A stretch of DNA of 64,000 nucleotides, from NCBI GenBank assembly GCA_016177735.1, contig JACOUS010000031.1, positions 1 to 64,000 of the forward strand, given 5' to 3'. The position numbers and the translations under genes are program-made. A model generated the notes under the pieces. It worked only from the letters and a program-made list of their open reading frames with translations. It ran no database searches and was not told the origin of the DNA. This stretch comes from Ignavibacteriales bacterium (GTDB lineage Bacteria; Bacteroidota; Ignavibacteria; Ignavibacteriales; Melioribacteraceae). Shown here piece after piece: positions 33,502 to 36,080 of this stretch; positions within the stretch are counted from its first letter, which is position 1, and each line of letters begins with the position of its first letter.

Positions 33502-34761
33502 TTACTGAATTTTGTGTCTCGTTTGTCCTTCGCCGATAACGACAAATTTTTTCGTGGTTAGTGCATCGAGACCCATCGGTCCGTATGCGTGAAGTTTTGT
33601 GGTAGAGATTCCGATCTCGGCACCCAAACCCATTTCGCCGCCGTCTGCAAAACGCGATGATGCGTTCACCATCACGGATGAAGAATTAACATCGCGGATA
33701 AATCTTTGGCTTGTCCGCAGATTGTTTGTTACAATCACATCCGTATGGTTCGATCCGAACTTTTCGATATGCGAAACGGCTTCATCATAATTTTCTACAA
33801 CCCTGGAAGCTATTATCAACGATAAAAATTCCGTACCGAAATCTTCATCGTTAGCCGCAACAACTTCGGGCAAAATTGATTTTGTTTTTTCACAGCCGCG
33901 AATTTCGACACCTCTTTTTTTCATCTCGATTTCAGCGAGGGGAAGAAATTTTTCCGCAATCTCTTTGTGCACAATCATTGTTTCGAGCGCGTTGCAAACT
34001 CCGGGACGCGAAGTTTTCCCGTCAATCAAAAGACGAAGCGCAGTATCGATGTCTGCATCTTTATCAACATAAAGATGGCAAACACCTTTGTAATGTTTTA
34101 TCACCGGGACACGACTGTTCTCGGCAACAAACCGGATCAAACCTTCACCGCCGCGAGGAATAACGAGATCGATATAATCATCGAGCTTCAACAGTTCCAG
34201 CATCGCTTCCCGATCTGTTGTCGGAACAAAAGTAATCACCGCAGTATCGACACCGAATTTTTCCAATCCTTTGTGCAGTGCATTCACTACTGCAACATTT
34301 GAATTGAACGCTTCCGATCCGCCGCGGAGAATTACTGCATTGCCGCTCTTCAAACACAAACCGGCAGCATCCGATGTTACATTCGGGCGTGCTTCATAAA
34401 TTATCGCAATTACTCCAAGTGGAATACTCATCTTTGCGACTTGCAATCCGTTGGGACGAACTTTGAAATCACTCATCAACCCGACCGGATCTGCAAGCAG
34501 TACAATTTCTTCGAGTGCTTCCGCCATACTGTTGATTCTTTCTTTCGTCAAAAGTAATCTATCGATCATTGCAGACGACAACCCTTTCTCATTCGCACTT
34601 TGAATATCAACAGCATTGGCTTGTAAAATATTTTCTTCTTCGCTTCGCAATGATTCTGCCATTGCAGAAAGAATTTCATTCTTCGTCTTTGTTGATAACC
34701 GCGCAAGCTGATTTGATGCACTGCGGCTCTTCTTTGCAAGTTCTATTAAATCGATTTCCAT
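33502..34761 (-). CDS. proA: Gamma-glutamyl phosphate reductase
   Basis: A 419-residue enzyme of proline synthesis that reduces gamma-glutamyl phosphate to glutamate semialdehyde with NADPH. Family motifs are IPLGVIAIIYEARPNVTSDAAGLCLKSGNA in two parts, RGGSEAF, IPRGGEGL, the catalytic Cys in SRPGVCNALET, and the C-terminal FADGGEMGLGAEIGIS and RGP-like AYGPMGLDAL. The ATG at 34761 follows AAAAGGAATAAAA. proB lies directly upstream on the same strand but a 228-bp repeat element now separates the two; before its insertion the proB stop would have been only 11 bases from this start. Confidence 0.96.
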   Translation of the reverse strand: MEIDLIELAKKSRSASNQLARLSTKTKNEILSAMAESLRSEEENILQANAVDIQSANEKGLSSAMIDRLLLTKERINSMAEALEEIVLLADPVGLMSDFKVRPNGLQVAKMSIPLGVIAIIYEARPNVTSDAAGLCLKSGNAVILRGGSEAFNSNVAVVNALHKGLEKFGVDTAVITFVPTTDREAMLELLKLDDYIDLVIPRGGEGLIRFVAENSRVPVIKHYKGVCHLYVDKDADIDTALRLLIDGKTSRPGVCNALETMIVHKEIAEKFLPLAEIEMKKRGVEIRGCEKTKSILPEVVAANDEDFGTEFLSLIIASRVVENYDEAVSHIEKFGSNHTDVIVTNNLRTSQRFIRDVNSSSVMVNASSRFADGGEMGLGAEIGISTTKLHAYGPMGLDALTTKKFVVIGEGQTRHKIQ

Positions 34762-34780
34762 TTTTATTCCTTTTAAATAA

Positions 34781-35008
34781 CTGAAGTTACGCAAGATTCA
34801 TATTTGGGTACTTTCCATTGCCACGACCTTCAGGTCGTGGTATAATATCTATCCGATACTATTGGCTTTAGCCACCATTTAAGACAATTTGGGCTAAAGC
34901 CAAATATATTGAAGGATACTCTTCTCCCCGACATATCACCGCAAAGCGGGATTCCGTTTGCACAGAAAATGTTGGGGCAATTAAAAAATATAACTTGCGT
35001 AACTCCAG
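34781..35008. mobile_element. 228-bp MITE-like element in the proBA operon
   Basis: Terminal inverted repeats are CTGAAGTTACGCAAG (34781-34795) and CTTGCGTAACTCCAG (34994-35008), 14 of 15 matching. The flanks are direct copies of TTAAATAA (34773-34780 and 35009-35016), a target duplication of 8 bases (9 if the next C is counted). Inside are three hairpins: CCACGACCT/AGGTCGTGG, TTGGCTTTAGCC/GGCTAAAGCCAA and CCCCGACAT/ATGTTGGGG, none coding. It has no transposase, so it would depend on one elsewhere. A related end lies at the left edge of the window. Confidence 0.85.
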
Positions 35009-35033
35009 TTAAATAACCAATGTTACAACAAGC

Positions 35034-36080
35034 TCATCGCGGTGAACAACTTCGCGTTTGCCTTCTGTATCGAGTAATTCCTTTTGCGATAAGTTTTGTT
35101 GTTTTATTTTCTTTAAAAAGTATTTCAACCGAATCCCCTTTTTTGAAATCACCTTCAACCGCACTTATTCCCGATGCCAGCAGAGACGCACCTTTTTGGC
35201 AGACTGCTTTTGCCGCGCCTTCATCAATAAAAATTTTTCTGCCGTCTGTTTTTGCATGTAACAGCCAATGTTTTTTTGCGGTCATCGGATTGGTACTTTT
35301 TCTAAAAATTGTTCCGGTCAATTTTCCGTTCAACAGATTATCGAGTACTTCCTTTTTTGTACTGTTCAAAATTACCGTATCGATTCCGCGCACAACTGCT
35401 TTGTGAGCGGCTTCAATTTTTGTTTTCATGCCGCCGGTCGCAATCGGATTTTTTGAATCTTCTGCAAGCGCATAAATTTCATTATCTATTTTTTCAACAA
35501 CCGGAATCAACTTTGCATTTTTATTTCTCTTCGGGTCGGCTTCGTACAACCCGTCGATATCGGTGCAGATGATCAAAAGGTCGGCTTCGGCAAGCATTGC
35601 AACATAAGCGGCAAGATTATCGTTATCTCCCACTTTTAATTCTTCAACTGCAACAGTATCGTTCTCATTTACGATTGGAAGCGTGCCAAGTTCCAGCAAA
35701 TTTTGAATTGTATTTTTTGCGTTAACGAATCTTTTTCTATCGTGAATATCTTCGTACGTAAGCAAAATTTGCGAACACGGAAAATCAAAAAAACGACTCC
35801 AGCTTGCCATCAATAATGTCTGTCCTATTGCCGCAAGCGCTTGCTTTTCGGGAATCGAGCGGTGCGAACGCTTTTGCATCTGCGGCTGTGTTGATAAACC
35901 CGCCGCTACAGCGCCGGATGAAACCAAAATAATTTCTTTGCCTTGATTTCTCGATTCGGTTATAAACGATGCTATCGGAAGCATATCCTTCGCACTTATT
36001 TTCTGTCCGCCGGGTGCGATTAATCCGCTGCCGACTTTAATAACAGCTCGTCTCCATTGTCGTATCGTTGTGAATTCCAT
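35034..36080 (-). CDS. proB: Glutamate 5-kinase with altered C-terminus
   Basis: A 348-residue glutamate 5-kinase, first step of proline synthesis, with the amino acid kinase domain (VIKVGSGLI, ILVSSGAVAAG, ILLTYEDI, VNENDTVAVEELKVGDND, CTDIDGLYEADP, GTGGMKTKIEAA-like NPIATGGMKTK). A PUA domain follows (about 265 on), but its end is not normal: the reading frame runs out as GITRYRRQTRSCSPR. The usual family ending, a conserved EVVHRDELVV, is present just downstream in another frame (ends at a TAA at 35009). So a small frameshift, and apparently a missing stretch of the PUA domain, altered the tail. The kinase domain is complete, so activity may survive, with altered proline feedback. Confidence 0.9.
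   Translation of the reverse strand: MEFTTIRQWRRAVIKVGSGLIAPGGQKISAKDMLPIASFITESRNQGKEIILVSSGAVAAGLSTQPQMQKRSHRSIPEKQALAAIGQTLLMASWSRFFDFPCSQILLTYEDIHDRKRFVNAKNTIQNLLELGTLPIVNENDTVAVEELKVGDNDNLAAYVAMLAEADLLIICTDIDGLYEADPKRNKNAKLIPVVEKIDNEIYALAEDSKNPIATGGMKTKIEAAHKAVVRGIDTVILNSTKKEVLDNLLNGKLTGTIFRKSTNPMTAKKHWLLHAKTDGRKIFIDEGAAKAVCQKGASLLASGISAVEGDFKKGDSVEILFKENKTTKLIAKGITRYRRQTRSCSPR

Follow-up and report, generated by a model that had tools for sequence, protein, structure and literature searches.

In the genome of an Ignavibacteriales bacterium (GenBank assembly GCA_016177735.1), the genes proB and proA lie on the minus strand of contig JACOUS010000031.1, whose positions 1 to 64,000 were analysed as a whole (the window), and are separated by an insert of 228 bp (34781-35008). 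An earlier note on this DNA described an element like a miniature inverted-repeat transposable element (MITE) between the two genes, with 15-bp terminal inverted repeats (one mismatch) and flanking copies of a target duplication. These features are present in the sequence as stated: the terminal inverted repeats are CTGRAGTTACGCAAG at 34781-34795 and 34994-35008, and an exact 8-bp target duplication, TTAAATAA, stands on both sides of the insert. The element described was the right one, but its nested interior of IS200/IS605 type was overlooked. The features of the locus are:

33502-34761, minus strand: proA, glutamate-5-semialdehyde dehydrogenase (NCBIfam PRK00197.1, 598 bits)
34773-34780: left target duplication TTAAATAA, exact over 8 bp
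34781-34795, plus strand: left terminal inverted repeat CTGAAGTTACGCAAG, an end common to the complete transposons L126-L129
34796-34816: left arm, from the outer end to the core, of nearly constant length among composite copies
34817-34981, plus strand: inner core, a three-hairpin palindromic element of IS200/IS605 type without transposase, resembling a palindrome-associated transposable element (PATE), with solo copies and TnpA-bearing relatives (L080, L082, L084, L093)
34821-34840: hairpin 1, CCACGACCT/AGGTCGTGG, perfect
34862-34903: hairpin 2, 12-nt arms around 18 nt, the place of the TnpA gene in autonomous relatives
34926-34977: hairpin 3, branched, its inner arm imperfect, with one G.T pair in the stem
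34982-34993: right arm
34994-35008, minus strand: right terminal inverted repeat CTGGAGTTACGCAAG
35009-35016: right target duplication, holding the TAA of the ancestral proB frame
35034-36080, minus strand: proB, glutamate 5-kinase with a shifted C-terminus (TIGR01027, 353 bits)

Within the window, the 15-bp end pattern is matched exactly only by the two ends of the insert, and with up to three mismatches it has six matches where 2.1 are expected. An exact 7-bp duplication arose by chance in 28 of 200,000 random placements of the insert size. The insert contains no frame of 80 codons, in agreement with the earlier note that it lacks a coding region, and the window has no Rfam match at gathering scores, for which reason an identity of the insert as an RNA gene or riboswitch was rejected. 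Three perfect hairpins had been claimed; hairpins 1 and 2 are perfect, but hairpin 3 is not.

The insert belongs to a family. It gives 63 matches listed in the host genome (3.87 Mb, 44 contigs), hits of the palindromes to themselves among them, and the places counted are a lower bound because 40 of 97 candidates were scored. From these, 34 cores were extracted and 32 were placed in a tree, two incomplete cores (L166, L023) being dropped; 17 of the 32 have both outer ends, two have one and 13 have none, with four rows (L004, L008, L013, L024) assigned to composites by hand. The earlier note had named the lack of other copies anywhere as a finding that would speak against it, and instead the host genome holds at least 17 full composite copies. 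All six of the best-preserved host copies, namely those with both flanks present and no more than two end mismatches in all, have duplications of 7-8 bp (five exact, one of 7 bp with one mismatch); many low-scoring end pairs in the duplication listing were spurious and are excluded from the counts. A copy with divergent ends, L022, nevertheless has an exact 7-bp duplication. Related composites occupy other sites in the same genus (L061 and L083 in G001, as well as L072, which is cut by another insert) and in another genus (L071 in G021). Several host contigs start or stop inside copies of the element. Positions 1-56 of the window, the start of contig C33, lie inside another copy, and since the flank there equals the start of contig C8, the two contigs overlap at this point. 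A 136-bp element on another host contig (L176, C32:25719-25854) has the ends CTGATGTTACGCAA/CTCATGTTACGCAA without such a core and appears to be a different MITE of the same end family.

The outer ends lead to a candidate parent. Of 164 genomes of the order, 33 have an exact copy of the 14-base end CTGRAGTTACGCAA, and one has the reversed pattern. The earlier note had proposed that the ends and the duplication could identify the parent and that full transposons with these ends should be sought; complete transposons with perfect CTGRAGTTACGCAA ends were indeed found by their ends in four related genomes (L126, 1175 bp; L127, 1074 bp; L128, 1047 bp; L129, 1200 bp), though none in the host genome. 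Exact 7-bp duplications flank L127, L128 and L129, and L126 has a duplication with one mismatch in 7. All four encode a DDE transposase, with matches to the Pfam families DDE_Tnp_1 and DDE_5. The NCBIfam model IS701_2 scores 328.6 bits with L126 (cut-off 250), 186 with L127 and 199 with L128; it has matches in 62 of the 164 genomes, above the cut-off in seven. Nine of the 12 best IS701_2 loci have an end pair CT[GC]ANNTTACGCAA (at most one mismatch) spaced 1.05-1.2 kb apart, three of these nine with an exact 7-bp duplication and six without. The full motif Y-(2)-R-(3)-E-(6)-K (YREK) is present in 9 of 9 transposases scanned. The exact end was found in 8 of 12 genomes with a transposase match of at least 100 bits versus 25 of 152 others (Fisher test, p = 3.4e-4 with a threshold picked post hoc). 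Terminal inverted repeats, a target duplication of constant length, multiple copies without a transposase gene and ends shared with a full transposon, the features by which a MITE is recognised, were all found. The interpretation of the insert as a MITE between proB and proA is supported by the other copies with target duplications of their own, by the empty sites in relatives and by the parent transposon recognised from the ends.

The target site has the AT-rich consensus TNA-N(1-2)-TNA. It was drawn from 26 duplications, exact ones only, and leans towards well-kept copies because end pairs lacking an exact duplication (such as L126, L137, L139 and L015) were left out. The exact 7-bp duplications (n = 21) nearly all read TNANTNA (T1 in 20, A3 in 20, T5 in 19 and A7 in 21), and three of the four 8-bp duplications read TNANNTNA. 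In the available part of a survey of insertion sequences (De Palmenaer et al. 2008, PMC2266710), IS701 elements have 4-bp duplications and mostly lack the full YREK motif, and the ISPepr1 group of IS4 has CT ends, YREK, AT-rich duplications of 7-8 bp and lengths of 1500-1600 bp. The parents differ from IS701 in their 7-bp duplications and full YREK; they resemble ISPepr1 in their CT ends, AT-rich target, duplications of 7-8 bp and YREK, and are called ISPepr1-like here on those grounds, despite the IS701 name of the NCBIfam model and their smaller size (1047-1200 bp). Compared by eye with the ISPepr1 ends YT-AA-YTT---A in the same part of that source, CTGAAGTTACGCAA fits at all defined positions but one, and the CTCA type fits less well. 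By YREK, CT ends and duplication length, the parents fit IS4/ISPepr1 better than IS701. The parent end CTGRAGTTACGCAA together with the TNA-N(1-2)-TNA target is a handle for finding MITE families of the order.

Judged by its sequence, the core of the insert is itself a second mobile element, PATE-like and of IS200/IS605 type. The core module (34817-34981) runs from ATTGCC to GGGGCAAT and holds hairpins 1 to 3. On host contig C38 (L093), the two arms of a hairpin 2 enclose a 151-aa TnpA of IS200/IS605 type; the unit opens with AATTGCCACG and closes with CGTGGCAATT, and such units are repeated there. This is the only one of four host Y1_Tnp genes with the layout of the core, and its stem letters are different, so the idea that the host genome holds a direct HUH partner for the core was rejected. 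In another genome (G026), hairpin 1 of the L080 unit is the same (CCACGACCTTTAGGTCGTGG), hairpin-2 arms stand on either side of TnpA, and the closing hairpin ends in CGTGGCAATT; L082 and L084 (the latter with a broken TnpA) resemble it. The TnpA proteins of L080, L082 and L093 score above the IS200/IS605 cut-off, and with NF047646 (REP-associated tyrosine transposase) they reach 32.4, 29.4 and 30.1 bits, below the cut-off of 80. Across 29 cores (5 of 34 dropped), 94.1% of the cells at 22 predicted pairs are standard and eight pairs have changed on both sides, a test favoured by the prediction of the structure from the same alignment; with partners slid, the value falls to 22-39%. Palindromes near the ends, no transposase gene and kinship to TnpA-bearing IS605-type elements, three of the marks of a PATE, were found in the core. 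In three or more genomes, such cores carry other small elements, several of them ending ...CTGTGTGA / TCACACAG..., inserted after a TTTA that lies in the hairpin-1 loop or close to it (L093 at about 2172-2280; L072, L083, L107, L166), and hairpin loops may be a preferred target.

In the tree of host cores, 11 of 13 solo cores fall in one clade (support 91/82), and the label composite or solo changes five times compared with a mean of 10.9 after shuffling. Where measurable, the arms between end and core in the main type are 17-20 and 9-13 nt long. The nearly constant arm lengths and the clade of solo cores indicate that the composite spread as a unit, the insert being apparently a DDE-type MITE that carries an HUH-type palindromic element (PATE). 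Capture of the core probably came before the spread. Several points weigh against this account: the order of events with a single capture depends on a tree in which the cores are short and diverged and few branches are strong (two of 28 are starred), solo cores could partly be composites that lost their ends, and a profile search of the host genome gave no match to IS701_2 (NF049921), so that present-day mobilisation is no more than a possibility. The sole DDE_Tnp_1 hit of the host genome, on C38, was rejected as a parent since it is an IS5-family gene, and inspection by eye, with no library search, of the five longest frames of contig C42, which ends in a copy, found no transposase.

At proBA, the left target copy lies 11 bases from the proA ATG (complement of 34759-34761), as the earlier note had it, and the Shine-Dalgarno sequence AAGGA, six bases before the ATG, is intact. 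The note had also placed the TAA that ends the EVVHRDELVV frame of proB in the right target copy. This TAA is that of the ancestral frame, but the present proB frame (348 codons, stop at 35034-35036) does not contain EVVHRDELVV. ProB of relatives ends in an in-frame EV(V/I)HRDELV tail, whereas in ProB of the window KGITRY is followed by a shifted frame that runs to the stop at 35034, and EVVHRDELVV stands in another frame. Compared with L146, proB of the window is short of about 65 nt near its 3' end (35034-35100), a loss that puts the frame out and gives ProB a C-terminal tail other than the usual one; the deletion was counted by hand because MAFFT placed it wrongly, and may be either a true mutation or an artefact of assembly. 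Profiles still match the kinase and most of the PUA domain. As the end of proB has already been frame-shifted, the stop codon at which the insert lies is the ancestral one and not the stop now used.

Joining the flanks of the insert via one duplication leaves 11 bases from the ancestral proB stop to the proA ATG, in line with the near-contiguity before insertion that the earlier note had supposed, and the empty site that it had looked for in relatives exists: all six proBA junctions compared lack the insert, with proB and proA close or overlapping. The six are those of three other genomes, the only ones with strong ProB matches among the 39 searched (60-75% identity), and of three species-collection records (68-81%; the nearest, at 81%, is Melioribacter sp. 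fen_1284); 15 more distant loci were left out. The patchiness of ProB may reflect frequent loss of proBA in the family or its horizontal movement. On the strand from proB to proA, no terminator-like or promoter-like match was found within the element, and a terminator or promoter towards proA was rejected. An 11-of-12 match to a sigma-70-like promoter (TTGCCA-17-TATAAT, 34818-34846, plus strand) lies across hairpin 1, directed away from proA, and the overall number of such matches equals that expected by chance. With the Shine-Dalgarno sequence kept and no terminator found towards proA, the effect of the insert on proA may be slight, and proA is presumably still transcribed together with proB. 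A literature search that paired proBA with MITEs brought up nothing relevant, and for proBA itself the outcome is an ordinary one, an operon spacer widened by a MITE.

The same ends bound other interiors in the order. MITEs of GTCATTCCCACG types occur in G043, G030, G026 and G040, GTCATGCTGA types in G055, G096 and G056, a ACCCTTTCAGGGT type in G059 and GATGTCATC types in G090 and G093. Eighteen of 20 interiors fold with z of -2.26 or lower (L099, -1.32; L142, -0.55), compared with 49 control stretches (mean 0.25, standard deviation 1.08, lowest -4.09); the 20 are not independent of one another, since many are homologous. The GTCAT cassette is found in G028 apart from these ends as well: six of eight loci read have no end nearby at up to three mismatches. 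An HUH origin of the GTCAT-type cargo found no support: none of 30 Y1_Tnp loci in six genomes is adjoined by GTCAT palindromes except L269, where they come from a neighbouring MITE, but this negative is weak because the gene start was assumed at locus position 1501, an assumption that fails where a contig end truncates the locus. Palindromes of the AAGGTAATAAGG type occur both in the 242-bp MITE of G057 and around a Y1 transposase gene in G055 (L269, L104), and may mark a second HUH-type cargo of these ends. It is conceivable, though rather doubtful, that ISPepr1-like ends (CTSANNTTACGCAA) are a general vehicle in the order, repeatedly taking up unrelated hairpin elements (IS200/IS605-type cores, GTCAT...ATGAC types and others) to form hybrids movable by both DDE (double-strand) and HUH (single-strand) transposition.

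Three other explanations of the insert were weighed. If it were only a palindromic repeat of IS200/IS605 or REP (repetitive extragenic palindromic) type, with outer repeats of its own or due to chance and no DDE transposase involved, the interior would be clearly of IS200/IS605 type and solo cores would exist, as they do; the target duplications in many copies contradict this, however, as do the match of the ends to DDE transposons and the unrelated interiors bounded by the same ends elsewhere, leaving it very little credibility. Retention of the insert because it regulates proA, by mRNA processing or by uncoupling from proB, would draw on the stable hairpins in the proB-proA transcript (interior z -5.6) and on the widening of an otherwise tight junction, but the family lies at many unrelated places, the element has no terminator or promoter match towards proA, and the Shine-Dalgarno sequence of proA is untouched, so that this too is improbable. 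Two independent captures, with a second subfamily bearing CTCACCTTACGCAAAAT ends that took up the same type of core separately, would make the uptake recurrent. The second composite type (L022, L024, L173) has other ends, corresponding to a second type of parent end (present on both sides of L214, and in others), and arms of 10/11 nt versus 19/10 nt, and its cores form a clade with 100/100 support, but those cores still lie on the composite side of the tree, and one capture followed by exchange or divergence of ends would also fit; the chances of a second capture are somewhat short of even.

The best explanation, held with considerable confidence, is that the insert is a non-autonomous DNA transposon (MITE) with ends recognised by a DDE transposase of the IS4/IS701 superfamily and a PATE as its interior, multiplied as a composite unit. 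It draws on the ends and duplications, on the other copies and the empty sites, on full transposons that share the ends and on TnpA-bearing relatives of the interior. A transposase-free PATE of IS200/IS605 type would have come to lie between DDE-type ends, and the composite would then have multiplied as one unit, the ISPepr1-like transposase acting in trans on the outer ends and joining the element to an AT-rich TNA-N(1-2)-TNA target with duplication of 7-8 bp. Such an enzyme probably moved the copy at proBA, which would have inserted at the ancestral stop of proB and put proA about 236 bp further away, leaving the Shine-Dalgarno sequence of proA intact. Two unrelated transposition chemistries would thus meet naturally in about 230 bp, under an end sequence that in relatives encloses other palindromic interiors.

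MITEs are known, as are PATEs, and nesting of elements is common; of a PATE-bodied MITE that multiplied as a composite, no description was found in a literature search limited to open-licence papers. The Chunjie MITE of Geobacter uraniireducens, described in PMC10969869 as roughly 235 bp long, within an operon and in many copies, is similar in size, setting and copy number (a likeness by description only), but its interior is not presented as a second element in the available part of that source. As set against the MITEs of ISPepr1-like IS4 elements in the part of PMC2266710 cited above, the body here is another mobile element. The PATEs of Haloquadratum (PMC3119063, available in part) resemble the core in being transposase-free, with palindromes near their ends and kinship to TnpA-bearing IS605-type elements; the core, however, lies inside MITE ends and spread with them, whereas the Haloquadratum table has MITEs in PATEs and no PATE in a MITE. 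As far as the accessible portion of Nunvar 2010 (PMC2817692) describes them, REPs and their associated tyrosine transposases share with the core a Y1-type transposase gene between palindromes, which also occur scattered on their own, but differ in that the TnpA related to the core scores as IS200/IS605 and not as REP-associated.
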